From NCBI GenBank assembly GCA_021160245.1, contig JAGHCW010000179.1:1-8126 (forward strand): a stretch of DNA of 8,126 nt, written 5' to 3'. Both the position numbers and the translations under genes were made by a program. Numbering within the stretch: the stretch's first letter is position 1; each line of letters opens with the position of its first letter. Shown here one piece after another: positions 1 to 8,126 of the stretch. Source of the DNA: a bacterium. GTDB taxonomy: Bacteria; B130-G9. The notes under the pieces were generated by a model. The model made no database searches. It saw nothing but the letters and a program-made list of their open reading frames with translations, and had not been told where the DNA came from.

Positions 1-484
1 AGTTCTCCGAAAGCAGCGCGAACCCTCGCGTCAAGAGCGAGACAGCAACCAAAATCGCCGTCGCCTCGTCGAACTCACTGTGCAGCGAGGGTTTCTCGCG
101 CCTCGTCTGAGAGTTGTCCATGCAGGGAAGGTCATCAAGTATCAGGGAGCTTGCGTGAACACACTCCACGGCGCACGCGGCCCTTATGAACTTCATCGGG
201 TCCCGTCCGAGCATTGCCGCGACGAAAAAGAGGAGGCATGGGCGAAGTCGCTTCCCACCGGAGAGAGCATATTCCTGAGCCTTGAGTAGTCTCTCCGAGT
301 TATTGCCCAGAGGATTGTCTTGCCCGCTAGGTCCGGGCGCAATCAGGCCGGCGCCACCAGGGACGGGTTGGAATCCTTCATCGGGAAAGCCATCGCCCGC
401 TTGATGCCCACCCCGGATGACATGAAGATCAAGCGCGGAATTGACGATCGCCCGGCAATCCTGAAGCTCTTTGAAATATCCCAT
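1..484 (-). CDS. Polyprenyl synthetase (FPP/GGPP synthase family), N-terminal part, cut by window edge
   Basis: The reading frame is open from the ATG at 484-482 to base 1 (161 codons, no stop), so the gene continues to the left. The family condenses isopentenyl diphosphate with allylic diphosphates to make FPP or GGPP in the cytoplasm. Visible motifs are GGKRLRP (residues 76-82, isopentenyl diphosphate binding) and the first aspartate-rich motif DDLPCMD (117-123), followed by RR..KPS.H (128-135). The FEATAIL-like helix follows. Chain length cannot be fixed; the small Ser five residues before the first Asp would fit a product longer than FPP, which is inference. Two oddities: residues about 25-62 form a Gly/Pro-rich stretch longer than in IspA, and the usual Ala-Gly-Asp-Ala after EATAIL reads Val-Ala-Val-Ser. 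The second Asp-rich motif lies outside the window. The ATG overlaps the valS stop by one base (TGATG), indicating coupling to valS. Confidence 0.87.
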   Translation of the reverse strand, partial: MGYFKELQDCRAIVNSALDLHVIRGGHQAGDGFPDEGFQPVPGGAGLIAPGPSGQDNPLGNNSERLLKAQEYALSGGKRLRPCLLFFVAAMLGRDPMKFIRAACAVECVHASSLILDDLPCMDNSQTRREKPSLHSEFDEATAILVAVSLLTRGFALLSEN

Positions 485-3192
485 CAATCAGCGACGAACT
501 TAAGCGCTCGCTCTATTTTCGCTCTTTGCTCAGTCGATTCCCGATGCCGCTTTTTTACCATCTCGATGATGTCACGAGGCGCATTTGAGATGAACTCTCG
601 GTTTCGGAGCTTGCGCTCGTCCGCATTGATGTTCTTGTCGATCTTCTTGAGCTCTTTGCCCAGTCGCGCCCGCTCCAGCTCAAAGTTGATTATCCCCTCA
701 AGCGGGACGAAAATCTCGCAGTCGGCGCCCACGGCCGTAGCGCAGTGTTTTCGCTCAGGTTCGCTATCTGTAACCGTCAGGCTTTCCGTCTTGGCCAGAG
801 ACATGATGTATTTTGAGCCATCTCGAAGGAGCTCTCTTAAGGAAGCGTTGGCGGTATAGACAATAACGGGGGCCTGCCTGGATGGCGGCACGTTCATCTC
901 GCTCCTCATGGTTCTGACTTTCGTTATGATTTCCATAACAAGGGACATCGAACGCTCCGCATCATCGCTGACAAGCGATTTATCGGACTCTGGCCAATCG
1001 CAAAGCGCTATGCTTATGGGGCTGTCGTCAGACCTCGGGAGGTGCTGCCAGAGCTCCTCGGTAATGAACGGCATTATCGGATGAAGCAACCGGAGAATGA
1101 CGTCAAGCGATCCGCAGAGAATCTTCGTGCATCGCTCCTTCAATTGCGGGTCGTCGTCCTGATACAGGTCGAGCTTTGCTAGCTCCAGATACCAGTCGCA
1201 ATACTCGTGCCAAACAAATTGATAGATAACGTCGCAGGCCTCGTAAAACTTATACTCCTCGAGGTCCTCTGTGACGTCGATGACTAGCCGAGCGAGCCTG
1301 CTCAGCATCCAACTGTCCGCAAGGCCTAATGGTCGTTGCTCGTCGCCCAGCGTCGCAAGGTCCGAGAGCTTCGTAACGCCCGCTGCCGGCATGCTGCCAT
1401 TCCCCTCTTCAGCGGACGGCGTGTTCATCAATATGAACCGGGCAGCGTTCCATATCTTGTTCACGAAATTGCGGTAACCAGCGACGCGACCCTCTGAAAT
1501 CGGCAAGTACTGTCGTCCGGGAATCGACTGAATCGCGAGCGCGAACCTGACCGCATCGGTGCCGAACTCGGAGATGAGGTTCCTCGCATCGACCACGTTG
1601 TCCTTGGACTTGGACATCTTCTGGCCCTTCTCATCGCAAATGAGCCCGTTGAAATAGACGACCTTGAATGGGACCTCGTGCATCACATAGAGTCCCATCA
1701 TTATCATCCGAGCAACCCAGAAGAAGATAATGTCGAATGCGGTAACGAGGCAGGAGGTCGGATAATAAGTTCGCAAGTCCTCGGTGTCGTCTGGCCAACC
1801 AAGCGTCGAGAAAGGCCACAGCGCGGAACTAAACCAAGTGTCGAGCACGTCCTCGTCCTGAACTATCTCTGTTCCGCCGCATTTGGGGCAATTCGAAGGC
1901 CGCTCCTCGCTAACGATCTGCTCGTCACAGCCCTGACAATAGTAGGCGGGGATTCTATGGCCCCACCAGAGCTGCCTCGATATGCACCAGTCGCGGATGT
2001 TCTCCATCCAGTCGAAGTAGAGATTCTCCCAGGCGGGCGAGATGAACTTGACATCACCATTCTTGACAGCGGCAATCGCGGGCTCAGCAAGCGGCTTCGT
2101 CTTCACAAACCACTGCTGCGATAGATATGGCTCGATCACCGTGTCGCATCGCTGGCAGTGCGCTACTTTGTGGCTGTGTGGCTCGATCTTCTCAAGCAGA
2201 CCGTTCTCCTTCAGGTACTTCACAAGGCGCCGCCGGCATTCCATCCGCTCAAGTCCCTGATATTCACCGGCGTTCTGATTCATCGTCGCATCTTTGTTCA
2301 TGACCGTTATCCGAGGCAGACCGTGCCTGTTGCCTATCTCAAAGTCGTTCGGATCGTGCGCAGGTGTGATCTTCACGATGCCGGTTCCAAACTCGGGATC
2401 GACCGCGTCGTCCTCCACGACAGGGAGCTCGCGCCCGACGACCGGGAGAATAATAGTCTTGCCCCTGAGATAATCCGCCTTGGGATGAGACTTGTGGATT
2501 GCCACGCCCGTGTCGCCGAGCATCGTCTCCGGCCTCGTTGTGGCGACGACAATATGGTCAACAGTGTCCTTAATTGGATACTTGATATGGTATAGGTTCC
2601 CCTCCGTCGGGCGATATATCGCCTCAAGATCGGAAATCGCCGTCTGGCACCTGGGGCACCAATTTATGATGTAGAATCCGCGATAGATCAGGCCATCATC
2701 GAAGAGCTTGACGAACGCCTTGGTTACCGCCTTGCACAGACCCTCATCCAGAGTGAAGCGCTCCCTTGACCAGTCTAATGAGGCGCCAAGCCTCTTTAGT
2801 TGGTCGGTTATGCCATCGTGCGATCGCTCTTTCCACTCCCAGACCCGTTTAACAAATTCCTCGCGCCCTATTTTCTCTCGGGTGAGGCCCTCTTTGGCAA
2901 GCTCCCGCTCGACAACATTCTGCGTCGCAATGCCCGCATGGTCAGTGCCCGGCAGCCAAAATGTGTCCGCCCCACGAGCCTTCTTGAACCTGATTATCAA
3001 GTCCTGAAGGACCATCGGCAAAAGATGACCCGTATGAAGGATGCCCGTTATGTTAGGAGGAGGTATTACAATGCAAAAGGGCTCCTTATTCGACTTGGGT
3101 TCAGCCTTGAAAAGCTCGTGCGCCTCCCAAAAGCGATACCACTTCTCCTCGTACTCCGCCGGTTCGTATCTCTTCTGAAGTGTCGTGGTCAT
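484..3192 (-). CDS. valS: Valine--tRNA ligase
   Basis: Class I aminoacyl-tRNA synthetase, 902 residues and apparently complete, that charges tRNA-Val with valine in the cytoplasm. The catalytic domain shows PPPNITG followed by the HIGH-type motif HTGH (53-56) and the KMSKS motif exactly (525-529). The inserted CP1 editing domain shows TTRPET (218-223) and HDPNDFEIG (279-287). Two zinc knuckles are visible: C179/C182 with C346/C349, and C419/C422 with C435/C438. The anticodon-binding domain begins near NKIWNAARF (578-586). A charged C-terminal coiled coil (about 835-902) is the arm typical of ValRS and absent from IleRS and LeuRS. Length lies between the Thermus (about 860) and E. coli (951) enzymes. 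A Ser/Gly-rich loop at 591-625 looks like a local insertion. The ATG lies 3 bases after the stop of the receiver-protein gene with no strong Shine-Dalgarno, so translation is probably coupled. Confidence 0.98.
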   Translation of the reverse strand: MTTTLQKRYEPAEYEEKWYRFWEAHELFKAEPKSNKEPFCIVIPPPNITGILHTGHLLPMVLQDLIIRFKKARGADTFWLPGTDHAGIATQNVVERELAKEGLTREKIGREEFVKRVWEWKERSHDGITDQLKRLGASLDWSRERFTLDEGLCKAVTKAFVKLFDDGLIYRGFYIINWCPRCQTAISDLEAIYRPTEGNLYHIKYPIKDTVDHIVVATTRPETMLGDTGVAIHKSHPKADYLRGKTIILPVVGRELPVVEDDAVDPEFGTGIVKITPAHDPNDFEIGNRHGLPRITVMNKDATMNQNAGEYQGLERMECRRRLVKYLKENGLLEKIEPHSHKVAHCQRCDTVIEPYLSQQWFVKTKPLAEPAIAAVKNGDVKFISPAWENLYFDWMENIRDWCISRQLWWGHRIPAYYCQGCDEQIVSEERPSNCPKCGGTEIVQDEDVLDTWFSSALWPFSTLGWPDDTEDLRTYYPTSCLVTAFDIIFFWVARMIMMGLYVMHEVPFKVVYFNGLICDEKGQKMSKSKDNVVDARNLISEFGTDAVRFALAIQSIPGRQYLPISEGRVAGYRNFVNKIWNAARFILMNTPSAEEGNGSMPAAGVTKLSDLATLGDEQRPLGLADSWMLSRLARLVIDVTEDLEEYKFYEACDVIYQFVWHEYCDWYLELAKLDLYQDDDPQLKERCTKILCGSLDVILRLLHPIMPFITEELWQHLPRSDDSPISIALCDWPESDKSLVSDDAERSMSLVMEIITKVRTMRSEMNVPPSRQAPVIVYTANASLRELLRDGSKYIMSLAKTESLTVTDSEPERKHCATAVGADCEIFVPLEGIINFELERARLGKELKKIDKNINADERKLRNREFISNAPRDIIEMVKKRHRESTEQRAKIERALKFVAD

Positions 3193-3195
3193 GGG

Positions 3196-4116
3196 CTAGG
3201 ACTTCTTTATGTCCGTTTTGAACATCTCGTTGACTAGCCTCTCGGATAGTCGTGGGAGAATGTCCTTGACAGCCCGGCTCGTCATATCGCCAATCCTGTC
3301 GCGCATAATCTGTTTCAGAGAATCTTTTAGCTCGACACTTACTCGCTTCAATATACCGTCCACAAGCGCATCGATCTCGTTGTCCAGAAACGTCTCGCCC
3401 TCAAGCTTGCCGTCTTGAATTCCTTCAGTTTCCTCTGCCAATGCCATTGCCTCCTGTGGTTCGCCACGTTCCTCTAAAACTTCTTTGTCCCCTGCAGTAG
3501 TCGATGCTTGGAGAAGCTCGTCTGCCTCCTCCCTGCGGACGCCTTCCTCCGTATAGACTATATCGCGCAACTCCCCATCAACTGTCGTAAGTTCCGCGGG
3601 ATCAACTGCCAACTCTCGCTCATCGGACTCATCTGAGCCAACCAACAAATTCCCAATCGCCTCCTCCAGAGCCGCATCAAGGCGTTCCTCTGACAACGCG
3701 TAAGCCTCGGCCTCGGCCACCCCGTTGACCGACGCTGCCTCGGCCGCCGGATGCCCCTCGCAAACCTGCGTCAGCTTTTGCCTAAGCGATTCTTCCGTAA
3801 ATGGCTTGAGAAGTGTTGCGTCAACGGCAGTCTCAAGATGTCTTGTCGATTCATCCTCCTCAAATGCCCCACGCAACAAGAGTATCGGTGTTCCCGAGAG
3901 AACCTCATCTTGCTTCAACCTCTCGCTGAGCCCAACAACATCGCTCAAGCGCCTCGGCATATCGAGTATTATGATATCTGGCGACATCTCCGAAACGCTC
4001 TCGACCGTCATCTGGCCATATTCCGCCGGAACAACATCGTAACCGACCGCCAGGCTAGATGAAATCGAAGATATAAGAAAGCTCATGTCCGACCATACAA
4101 CCACTCTTTTATTCAT
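3196..4116 (-). CDS. CheY-like receiver-domain protein with acidic linker and helical C-terminal tail
   Basis: 306 residues. Residues 1-119 read as a response-regulator receiver: hydrophobic VVVWSD (5-10), a candidate phosphoacceptor Asp52 in IIILDMP, PILLL (78-82), and the conserved Lys104 in LLKPF. Two features are weaker than in classical receivers: the acidic pair near the N terminus is reduced to Asp10, and the usual Thr/Ser after strand 4 is not evident. Phosphorylation is therefore uncertain. Residues about 120-243 are Glu/Asp/Ala-rich and low in complexity, probably a flexible linker. Residues 244-302 form amphipathic helices ending in a LPRLSERLVNEM segment, resembling tails on deltaproteobacterial receiver proteins (recollection, not searched). 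There is no DNA-binding or catalytic output domain. The start ATG overlaps the lolA stop by 4 bases (ATGA). The output and any partner histidine kinase are unknown; a protein-interaction role is inferred. Confidence 0.8.
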   Translation of the reverse strand: MNKRVVVWSDMSFLISSISSSLAVGYDVVPAEYGQMTVESVSEMSPDIIILDMPRRLSDVVGLSERLKQDEVLSGTPILLLRGAFEEDESTRHLETAVDATLLKPFTEESLRQKLTQVCEGHPAAEAASVNGVAEAEAYALSEERLDAALEEAIGNLLVGSDESDERELAVDPAELTTVDGELRDIVYTEEGVRREEADELLQASTTAGDKEVLEERGEPQEAMALAEETEGIQDGKLEGETFLDNEIDALVDGILKRVSVELKDSLKQIMRDRIGDMTSRAVKDILPRLSERLVNEMFKTDIKKS

Positions 4117-4898
4117 TCAGAGACTCGCCCCTCTCCCGATTTGCTCTTGCTAGATGATGTTGAGCCGTCGCCTCTTGATGAGATGTAGTTGGGAATCGAA
4201 TTGCCCGCAGAGTCCATCACGGCAACGCCCGTGGGCAGATCGAGCCGGAAGAGATTCTTGTCGAAGCTCTTTGGCATGGAGATATTCGAGAAGGTGACAC
4301 GCGTCTTATTGCCATAGACATCGAAATAATCTGTCCCCCGAACCAGCAGTGTTTTTTTATCAATAGAGAGAACAAGCCTCAAAAGCGCCCCCATGGGCTC
4401 TCTCGGAACGATCCCAATCTTATATTCCCCGCCTTCATCTTTCGACGCCGCGCTCTTGTCCAGCCTCGCTTTGAATCGCTCCATTACGTTCTTCTTGCCG
4501 CCTAGAAGGTCCAAGACAGCCTTCATCTCCTCCACCTGACTAGCATCGTTCACAACCAGTTGCTTATCCTGGGGAACGAAGAACTCGACCTTGCCGGCAA
4601 CCACTAGCAAATACTGTGGTTCAGGCTTTTTGTAGTCCCACCGAACCTTGCCAGGGCGTTCTGCGTAATATACGCCGGATGCCGTTTGCTCCTTGCCCAT
4701 CGTGGCGTTGAACGTAACTTGGGTAAAATCCGCCTTGATCCTCAGAATGGTCCGATAGCGTTCCTGCACCTTCGCCAGTATCGTCCCCGCTGTCGGGACG
4801 TTCTCACCGGCCACCAGAACGGCTGAAAAGACCAGCAAGACACCCGACAACGCGCCCAACGCTACTGCTAATTTGAGCCTTCTCTCGAATAATCGCAT
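4113..4898 (-). CDS. lolA: Outer-membrane lipoprotein carrier protein LolA-like
   Basis: 261 residues from the ATG at 4898. LolA-family proteins accept lipoproteins from the LolCDE transporter and carry them across the periplasm to the outer membrane. An N-terminal signal peptide is clear: MRLFERRLK (basic), a hydrophobic core at about 10-29, then VAG with likely cleavage near residue 31. The mature part has the family pattern: ADFTQ (56-60), a RPGKVRWDY strand (81-89), then KPEPQYLLV. Near the C terminus, TRVTFSNI (199-206) and LFRLDLPTGVAVMD (216-229) match the LolA ending. A Ser/Gly/Lys-rich tail (about 230-261) extends beyond the usual fold. A start 13 codons upstream (ATG at 4937) is possible. 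I prefer 4898 because a TATAAT box covers the upstream ATG, GGGGA precedes 4898 at suitable spacing, and the signal peptide then begins properly. It is the first gene of the minus-strand operon. Confidence 0.88.
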   Translation of the reverse strand: MRLFERRLKLAVALGALSGVLLVFSAVLVAGENVPTAGTILAKVQERYRTILRIKADFTQVTFNATMGKEQTASGVYYAERPGKVRWDYKKPEPQYLLVVAGKVEFFVPQDKQLVVNDASQVEEMKAVLDLLGGKKNVMERFKARLDKSAASKDEGGEYKIGIVPREPMGALLRLVLSIDKKTLLVRGTDYFDVYGNKTRVTFSNISMPKSFDKNLFRLDLPTGVAVMDSAGNSIPNYISSRGDGSTSSSKSKSGEGRVSE

Positions 4899-4935
4899 AA
4901 AAATCCCCAAGTCTAGAATCTGCTGATAGACAACC

Positions 4936-4961
4936 ATTATACCTTCTCATCTTCTTGTCAA
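4936..4961 (-). promoter_or_regulatory. Candidate sigma-70-type promoter for the lolA operon
   Basis: On the minus strand TTGACA occupies 4961-4956 and TATAAT 4941-4936, both exact consensus hexamers. They are separated by only 14 bases rather than the usual 16-18. Transcription would start near 4929, giving a leader of about 30 bases before the ATG at 4898. The position, directly upstream of the first gene of a four-gene operon, supports the call. The short spacer weakens it, and the true -35 may be a less perfect sequence a few bases further upstream. Confidence 0.45.
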
Positions 4962-5205: not shown

Positions 5206-5297
<92 letters not shown>

Positions 5298-5567: not shown

Positions 5568-5952
<385 letters not shown>

Positions 5953-6417
5953 TTGATCAACAACAAGACTTTAGATGATCTCACTGTTGCTGACGTGCGT
6001 CATCTGCTGGTCGAGCATGCGACGGTCATCAAGCAGCACCAGCCGATGAGGATGCTGCTCGAGAAGCTGATAGAGGACCCCCGCAAGAGGAACGTCTATG
6101 TTGTGGACGATGAGAATGTTCTGATTGGTTCAGTGAGGATGAATGCAGTTGTAGAAAGCCTGTTCCCGCTGTCAGCAGTTCTCGAGTATAGCGGCCTGCT
6201 GACGATGGAGAGCTTTCACTTAGTTGGGTCCACAGTAGATGACATCATGGATGAGAAGCCGTGTTTCGTAAGTGAGTCGACGTCCCTGTCCGACATGGCC
6301 CGGATTCTAATGCGGGAGAAAATTGATGAGCTACCTGTGCTCGATGGCCAGCACCGAGTTATTGGCCAGATAAACGTCTATGAGGTGATTGCGGCTTACC
6401 TCAAGACATCTTTGTAG
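5953..6417 (+). CDS. Stand-alone CBS-domain pair protein
   Basis: 154 residues forming two CBS domains and nothing else. The first covers about 15-72 (VYVVDDENVLIGSV at 48-61). The second covers about 94-151 (VDDIMDEKPCFVSEST, then KIDELPVLDGQHRVIGQINVYEV). CBS pairs (Bateman modules) usually bind adenine nucleotides or related ligands and regulate enzymes, channels or transporters. No ligand can be assigned from sequence alone. The start is TTG at 5953; GGAG at 5944-5947 sits at normal spacing, and the protein begins sensibly with MINNKTLDDLTVADV. No in-frame ATG gives a comparable start. It ends 12 bases before the EIIA-CBS gene and is followed by a permease gene, so it is probably a soluble regulator of that cluster. 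Confidence 0.85.
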   Translation: MINNKTLDDLTVADVRHLLVEHATVIKQHQPMRMLLEKLIEDPRKRNVYVVDDENVLIGSVRMNAVVESLFPLSAVLEYSGLLTMESFHLVGSTVDDIMDEKPCFVSESTSLSDMARILMREKIDELPVLDGQHRVIGQINVYEVIAAYLKTSL

Positions 6418-6429
6418 GATTGACTTAGG

Positions 6430-7368
6430 TTGGAGAACGAGCAGGGTACCAGTCTGGTCCAATACCTTTCCCCAGGGCAGATACTTGTGGGTGTAGAGGC
6501 CAAGGATAGCTACGACCTGATGAGTCAGATGTTGGATGCGCTGGTGGAGAGCGATAGCTTCCGGGCTCAAACGAACATCTCCCGGGATCAGGTTTGGCGA
6601 CTTCTTATCGAGCGCGAGAAGAAGCAATCAACAGGGATTGGCGACGGTGTGGCGTTCCCGCACGGCCGCATTCCCGGCTACAAGGGATTAAGCATCTGCC
6701 TCGCGATACTCAAGCGGCCAGTTGATTACGGTTCGTTTGACGGCAAGCCGGTCCAGATAGCCTGCATGACGCTGACACCTGAGGAGCAGCCGGCGCTCGC
6801 TTTGCGGCTGTACTCCAAGGTTGCAGAGCTCCTGGCGGATGAGGCCATACGGAGCTTCTTCCTTTCGGCCGCGGATGCCCGCCTCATCTACAACTACTTG
6901 AGAAAGAAGGAGTTCACGGTCGAGACGATCCTCACCGCCAGGGACATCATGCGCCCACAGCTCTTGAGGATACCGCCTGAAATGCCACTTCGTGACGCCG
7001 CCCACCTAATGATGCGCCACCGGGTCGAGGCGGCTGCCGTGCTCGAGAAGGACGGGAGGATTGTCGGGATGATCACGTGCGACGACATCTTTCGGTATGG
7101 CGTGCCAGAGTTTTTCAGCCATTTGCAGAGTGTTGCGTTTATCAGGGAGTTCGATCCCTTTGAGAAATACTTTCTCAATGAGAGGAAGGCCTGTGCCAGG
7201 GACTTGATGTCAAAGGATTTTGCTGCCCTTCCCCCGGAAACAACGATGCTTGAGATAGTGTTTGCCCTCACTATTCAGAATTATCCGAAGGTCTATGTTG
7301 TGAAGGCCGGCCAATGCATCGGGGTAATCGACCGGGCAGTAGTTTTAGACCGGATCATTAACTTCTAG
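6430..7368 (+). CDS. PTS EIIA (fructose/PtsN type) fused to a CBS-domain pair
   Basis: 312 residues. Residues about 8-158 are an EIIA domain of the mannitol/fructose/nitrogen type: KKQSTGIGDGVAFPHGR (64-80) holds the phosphorylatable His78, followed by RPVDYGSFDGKPVQI (96-110) and a helical end LADEAIRSFF. Residues about 168-223 and 253-310 are two CBS domains (ARDIMRPQLLRIPPEMPLRDA; ARDLMSKDFAALPPETTMLE). No EIIB or EIIC is present, so the role is likely regulatory rather than sugar uptake. By my alignment, the second histidine usual in PtsN (HL.xL after the TP.EQ segment) is Ala124 here, which may affect phosphotransfer. The start is TTG at 6430, with AGGA ten bases upstream and AGG immediately before it. 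Twelve bases separate it from the CBS gene and 29 from the permease gene, so one operon is likely. The fusion joins phosphoenolpyruvate-PTS signalling with nucleotide sensing (inference). Confidence 0.9.
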   Translation: MENEQGTSLVQYLSPGQILVGVEAKDSYDLMSQMLDALVESDSFRAQTNISRDQVWRLLIEREKKQSTGIGDGVAFPHGRIPGYKGLSICLAILKRPVDYGSFDGKPVQIACMTLTPEEQPALALRLYSKVAELLADEAIRSFFLSAADARLIYNYLRKKEFTVETILTARDIMRPQLLRIPPEMPLRDAAHLMMRHRVEAAAVLEKDGRIVGMITCDDIFRYGVPEFFSHLQSVAFIREFDPFEKYFLNERKACARDLMSKDFAALPPETTMLEIVFALTIQNYPKVYVVKAGQCIGVIDRAVVLDRIINF

Positions 7369-7397
7369 TTTTTCGATACAAAATCGTCTGGAGAGAG

Positions 7398-8126
7398 ATG
7401 CTTGCCGCTGCAGTGGTTTTCGTCGTAGTTTACGTGCTGATAGCCTCCGAGAAAGTTGACAAGACTATCGCAGCCATGCTGGGCGCCGCCGTGGTTGTAT
7501 TCAGTGGCCTGATTCCGTATGAGCAGGCATTGCATCAGGTTGACCTGAATGTCATCTATCTTTTGATCGGGATGATGGTCATTGTGAACATCCTAAGCAC
7601 AACGGGCGTATTTGAGTGGCTGGCCATCATTGCAGGTCAAAAGGCGAGGGGCAATGGCGCAGCCTTGCTTGTGCTCCTGCTAGCTGTAACAGCGGTGGTC
7701 TCAGCCTTTCTTGATAACGTAACGACGATCATCCTCATTGCACCCGTGACAATCCTTATCACCCAGATACTCGAAATCGAAACCGTCCCATTCCTGATTC
7801 TGGAAGCAGTTTTCTCGAATATCGGGGGCGCAGCAACGCTGGTAGGGGACCCGCCTAATGTCCTGATAGGGTCAAGAGCGCACATCCCCTTCAACGATTT
7901 TCTGCTCCACCTAGGACCCATCATTGCCGTTGTTATGGTGCTGTCTCTCTTGGTCATTCTCCGCTTCCTGAGAAAGGGCATCAGGCCCACAGAAGAGGCC
8001 AAGTTGAGACTGATGCGCGCAACGCCCCGAAAGGCCATCGTTAAGCCAAAGCGATTGATGCGCGCGAGCGTTATATTCTTCACGGTGGTCGTAGGCTTCT
8101 TCCTGAGTCACCTCTTGCATGTTGAG
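7398..8126 (+). CDS. ArsB/NhaD-type ion transporter permease, N-terminal part, cut by window edge
   Basis: The frame is open from ATG at 7398 to the last base (243 codons, no stop); related proteins are about 420-430 residues. It is an inner-membrane secondary transporter of the ion transporter superfamily. Family hallmarks are SAFLDNVTTIILIAPV (102-117) and NIGGAATLVGDPPNVLIGS (141-159), the re-entrant loop signatures of the ArsB/NhaD and citrate-transporter-like group. Hydrophobic segments lie at about 3-16, 25-40, 52-69, 88-105, 108-123, 171-190 and 222-240, with a basic cytoplasmic-looking loop at 191-221. GGAG at 7390-7393 gives a good ribosome-binding site. Substrate cannot be set from sequence: sodium/proton exchange, arsenite or an organic anion are all possible. 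The neighbouring CBS and EIIA-CBS genes suggest regulated ion homeostasis rather than arsenic resistance; no ars genes are visible. Confidence 0.9.
   Translation, partial: MLAAAVVFVVVYVLIASEKVDKTIAAMLGAAVVVFSGLIPYEQALHQVDLNVIYLLIGMMVIVNILSTTGVFEWLAIIAGQKARGNGAALLVLLLAVTAVVSAFLDNVTTIILIAPVTILITQILEIETVPFLILEAVFSNIGGAATLVGDPPNVLIGSRAHIPFNDFLLHLGPIIAVVMVLSLLVILRFLRKGIRPTEEAKLRLMRATPRKAIVKPKRLMRASVIFFTVVVGFFLSHLLHVE

Follow-up and report, generated by a model that had tools for sequence, protein, structure and literature searches.

An EIIA-CBS fusion protein encoded beside an IT-superfamily permease in many bacterial phyla: a candidate regulatory subunit for ion transport

Why should a bacterium encode a soluble protein that joins a PTS EIIA domain to a pair of CBS domains directly ahead of an ion permease, and what would such a protein do to its neighbor? 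This question is raised by contig C36 of a 3.43 Mb draft genome, the whole of which (8126 bases) was analyzed and is referred to here as the window. Three open reading frames (ORFs) on the + strand (5953-6417, 6430-7368 and 7398-8126) are separated by 12 and 29 bases, and the third, encoding the permease, is still open at the contig end. ORF coordinates and Pfam matches agree with the domains and the spacing given in a preliminary description of this DNA. The features are as follows.

5953..6417, + strand: separate CBS-pair protein, 154 aa, TTG start (Pfam CBS, 2.9e-13)
6430..7368, + strand: EIIA-CBS-CBS fusion, 312 aa, TTG start (Pfam PTS_EIIA_2, 7.1e-22; CBS, 1.3e-21)
6463..6906, + strand: PtsN-type EIIA domain of the fusion, residues 12-159 (1a6j: Z 21.9, rmsd 1.7, 148 aligned)
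6661..6663, + strand: codon of the predicted phospho-accepting His78, invariant in 43/43 fusions
6937..7098, + strand: CBS1 of the fusion, with the canonical motif GMITCDD
7099..7203, + strand: conserved inter-CBS segment, a candidate docking segment (G-x-P-[DE]-[FY] ... F-D-P-F-E)
7204..7362, + strand: CBS2 of the fusion, in which the canonical motif is not kept
7398..8126, + strand: ArsB/CitMHS (IT superfamily) permease, N-terminal 243 residues (Pfam CitMHS, 8.3e-55; ArsB, 1.7e-8)

The permease continues from residue 244 on another contig of the same genome (C115:3-584), the first eight letters of which, ATGTTGAG, are the last eight of the window, and the reading frame runs on across the joint. 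Downstream of the permease on C115, the next large ORF is encoded on the other strand, and the permease gene thus apparently closes the operon. A purine-rich stretch, ggagag, precedes the first gene (5944-5949) and the third (7390-7395) and is weak for the second. No terminator-like sites were found between the three genes, and promoter and terminator scans yielded nothing beyond chance. Two serine tRNA genes lie upstream of the module, at 5206-5297 (anticodon CGA) and then 5568-5658 (GGA); the − strand at 2-4937 encodes a polyprenyl synthetase (cut), a valine-tRNA ligase, a divergent receiver-domain protein and LolA. The explanation favored here, to which we give somewhat better than an even chance as a whole, is that the three genes form one operon, in which an IT-superfamily ion permease is accompanied by a soluble regulator of its own: EIIA-CBS would act in trans as a regulatory subunit of the permease.

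The construction of the fusion is clear. Its AlphaFold model has a mean pLDDT of 89.6, and a fold search with this model matched residues 7-160 to EIIANtr (1a6j) and residues 167-312 to CBS pairs, such as those of AcuB and DarB (Z 16-17); both folds are known, and none of the chains listed spans the joint architecture. The EIIA domain scores 78.4 bits against PF00359 (cut-off 27), with its active-site histidine within PH-x-R, and 61.2 against the PtsN equivalog model TIGR01419, below the cut-off of 138.7; it is, therefore, PtsN-like rather than PtsN. His78, Arg62 and Arg80 are identical in all 43 fusions compared. The genome encodes HPr and a 584-residue EI side by side on contig C188, in that order, with HPr cut at the contig start, and no EIIC of family PF02378, the one EIIC family searched, was found in it. 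The invariant active histidine and the presence of EI and HPr genes support the earlier claim of a phosphotransfer input, and a phosphorelay input to EIIA-CBS is well supported. The EIIA domain would take its phosphate from HPr at His78, and the unphosphorylated protein is more likely to be the inhibitory form, by analogy with PtsN and YcgO in Escherichia coli.

EIIA domains also occur in other proteins of this lineage and of related loci. Contig C195 of the same genome encodes, in tandem, two proteins that resemble amino-acid permeases and carry an EIIA domain at the C terminus (L003:1462-3327 and L004:1462-3327), and in a relative (G002) a CPA2 antiporter-EIIA fusion lies 128 bases after the permease (L180:4255-6126, − strand); these proteins suggest that EIIA control of transporters is a theme of the lineage. 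Shortly upstream of EIIA-CBS and permease, five loci encode an EIIA domain behind an N-terminal helix-turn-helix (L094:681-1367, L098:1236-1895, L099:877-1593, L104:2618-3328 and L134:2810-3517), which is HTH_17 (Pfam) in L094 and looks alike by eye in the other four. It is possible that these are phosphorylation-controlled DNA-binding proteins.

The second input proposed for the system, gating by an adenine nucleotide, fares less evenly. A nucleotide-binding CBS pair was taken to need the canonical nucleotide-ribose motif, G-h-h-[ST]-x-x-[DN], at least once. Of the four CBS domains encoded in the window, only CBS1 of the fusion has it (GMITCDD), and through this domain the fusion qualifies. 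The separate CBS protein does not qualify, having the motif in neither of its domains (GSVRMNA and GQINVYE). Gating by adenine nucleotides is, thus, an inference: nucleotide input at CBS1 of the fusion is plausible, and input through the separate CBS protein would be a weak proposition. Across the 43 fusions, the motif is found in CBS1 of 19 and in CBS2 of 13, a variation that suggests that ligand binding may differ between lineages. In the favored explanation, the CBS pair of the fusion would act as a ligand sensor, with an adenine nucleotide the probable occupant of its one canonical site.

One refuting condition set by the preliminary description, adjacency of the genes in this genome only, is contradicted by the neighborhoods examined, in which EIIA-CBS and permease recur together across many phyla. 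The phylum of the window is small; in three of its four genomes examined the order of the three genes is unchanged. Their starts, too, are conserved in two relatives, in which the fusion is 81% and 63% identical; neither fusion nor permease was found in the fourth genome. A profile of the fusion, searched against 386 genomes drawn from across the domain, gave 22 full-length matches outside the phylum (one split in two ORFs); in 13 of these the permease is the immediate neighbor and has the same orientation. The other nine, one of which is at a contig end, have no adjacent permease in view, and the fusion is, therefore, not dedicated to the IT-superfamily permease alone. A second, independent set consisted of 80 named loci fetched with a permease query, which are closest matches rather than a random sample, and in counts from which a divergent permease on a very long branch (L089) and a duplicate (L077/L170) are to be discounted. 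The pair of EIIA-CBS and permease occurs in at least seven phyla in this set. EIIA-CBS lies directly upstream of the permease in Kiritimatiellota, Lentisphaerota, Verrucomicrobiota, Omnitrophota, Auribacterota, Spirochaetota, Cloacimonadota and one Dependentiae genome, and a separate CBS pair adjoins the permease in Nitrospirota, Acidobacteriota, Pseudomonadota, Thermodesulfobacteriota, Myxococcota and Actinomycetota, in the first three of which it holds that position alone. Among the same 80 loci, Bacillota have many close permeases, with neither regulator gene adjoining, a point against the favored explanation. Fusion and permease are separated by −8 to +30 bases in 33 of the 39 cases.

The type of regulator follows the permease closely. 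On a tree of 105 permeases it requires 11 changes, versus a mean of 48.5 with shuffled labels. Distances between fusions are correlated with those between permeases (r 0.765, n=35; 0 of 2000 permutations as high), which fits joint inheritance but would also follow from shared ancestry alone. At one locus (L069:4651-8230) the EIIA-CBS gene has permeases of this family on both flanks. Permease-less fusions are found directly after rnfC, with rnfD nearby (L084:5998-6909), and flanked by DUF502 and a Na/Ca exchanger-like gene (L070:5995-6897; the layout of L079:5995-6900 is the same by eye).

What the permease carries is less evident than its family. It scores 186.7 against PF03600 (CitMHS/IT superfamily), well over the cut-off of 31.9, and in sequence ArsB and DASS/VcINDY are its closest matches among solved structures. 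It shares a superfamily with MamN, ArsB and NhaD, as well as the conserved motifs DNVTT and GDPPN, but scores under every curated family cut-off: 47.1 versus 577.1 for the NhaD Na+/H+ antiporter model, 182.3 versus 500 for MamN and, with a full-length relative (L007), 101.6 versus 457 for the NCBIfam ArsB model; it is also below the NhaB and DASS cut-offs. The neighbors of related loci include Na+/H+ exchangers (L101 and L098) and a 20-kDa subunit of NADH oxidoreductase (L106), and the cation antiporters and ion-pumping complexes near such loci favor a Na+/H+-type role, without settling the substrate. The module would probably serve to keep the balance of Na+/H+ (or of other ions) in step with the energy state of the cell. 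The permease might instead move an anion, such as arsenite or a dicarboxylate, the module then coupling carbon or oxyanion transport to the state of the PTS. The best Pfam match, CitMHS, and the nearest solved structures point that way, but the curated ArsB and DASS models fall below cut-off just as those of NhaD and MamN do, the recurrent neighbors are of the cation-linked kind, and no arsA- or arsR-type genes were noticed nearby in an unsystematic look, so that an anionic substrate appears rather unlikely.

It must also be asked whether the permease is the main target of the fusion at all. Regulator and permease could be co-expressed while EIIA-CBS acts mainly elsewhere, on transporters, enzymes or transcription, as a general output protein of the PTS. 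PtsN has several targets in other bacteria, and this idea gains from the permease-less fusions, the surroundings of which include DUF502 with a Na/Ca exchanger gene, an rnf operon, and homologues of sucD and ndk (these two named by eye). It is nevertheless judged improbable given the close adjacency to one permease family in many phyla, the clustering on the permease tree and the segment between the two CBS domains, which is best kept in permease-linked fusions: Pro243 of this segment is found in 35 of 36 of these versus four of seven unlinked ones, the latter being the only seven compared. If EIIA-CBS is a regulatory subunit of the permease, this segment, a candidate docking site suggested by its pattern of conservation, would touch the permease and set its activity.

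The first gene of the window stands apart from this core. Considering all loci examined, the combination of CBS, EIIA-CBS and permease genes is found only in the phylum of the window (3/3) and in one Kiritimatiellales genome (L098, gap of 10 bases), a distribution so restricted that the conserved core is the EIIA-CBS/permease pair, to which the separate CBS gene is an addition. The interpretation in the preliminary description is, thus, partly supported: the pair recurs, and the separate CBS gene lies outside the recurring core. Derivation of this gene as a recent copy of the CBS pair of the fusion was considered and is unsupported, since it groups with separate CBS genes of other operons: in a CBS-pair tree, the CBS proteins of three-gene loci cluster with these rather than with fusions, with moderate support (83), and the placement of the L098 gene beside that of the window is weak (long branch, support 80). 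The separate CBS protein may be an additional partner peculiar to this lineage, one that perhaps pairs with the CBS module of the fusion. The idea that its gene is a degenerate remnant that plays no part in the module, as the missing canonical motif and narrow distribution might suggest, is very doubtful, because the gene is intact and in place in three species, 2-12 bases from the fusion, and its product is 77% (L007) and 53% (L008) identical in the relatives.

In a broader reading, which we hold tentatively and at a little under an even chance, these loci represent a widespread and undescribed form of control, in which soluble EIIA-CBS integrates a phosphorelay and a nucleotide signal and matches ion exchange to cell energy, the regulator being swapped between lineages in a series of none, CBS alone, EIIA-CBS, and CBS plus EIIA-CBS. 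Few cases are known in which PTS proteins control ion transporters, and most of these are proteobacterial. If the reading is true, the principle would prove far more general, with a dedicated EIIA-CBS subunit encoded beside one permease family across many phyla, including several uncultured ones. Cultured test systems exist, such as Victivallis vadensis, which is among the loci found, and with the whole series placed on a single permease tree, the evolution of transporter regulators can be tested directly.

No description of an EIIA-CBS protein with an IT-superfamily permease was found in open-licence papers searched for EIIA, CBS and ArsB combined, in keeping with the initial remark that no characterized system has exactly this gene set. 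The module is real, recurrent and uncharacterized, and it is built from known parts. CBS domains and EIIA proteins or domains are counted as separate modes of transporter control in a review of the subject (PMC10710835). In E. coli, unphosphorylated PtsN (EIIANtr) binds and inhibits the K+/H+ antiporter YcgO (PMC11808508); the likeness lies in a PtsN-type EIIA, a regulatory phosphorelay, an ion transporter as target and a regulator acting in trans. YcgO, however, is a CPA1 antiporter with RCK and CorC regions of its own (PMC11808508), whereas here the EIIA domain is fused to a CBS pair and encoded in the same operon as its presumed target, an IT-superfamily permease. LacS resembles the module in having an EIIA domain devoted to one transporter and phosphorylated in an HPr-dependent manner (PMC10710835), but that domain is EIIAGlc-like and fused to the transporter, whereas the EIIA considered here is of another family, resides in a separate CBS-bearing protein and accompanies a different transporter family. 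In MgtE, CorB and OpuA-type ABC importers, a CBS pair likewise serves as a nucleotide-responsive regulator of transport (PMC10710835); here, by contrast, the CBS pair belongs to a separate soluble protein, in which it is joined to EIIA.
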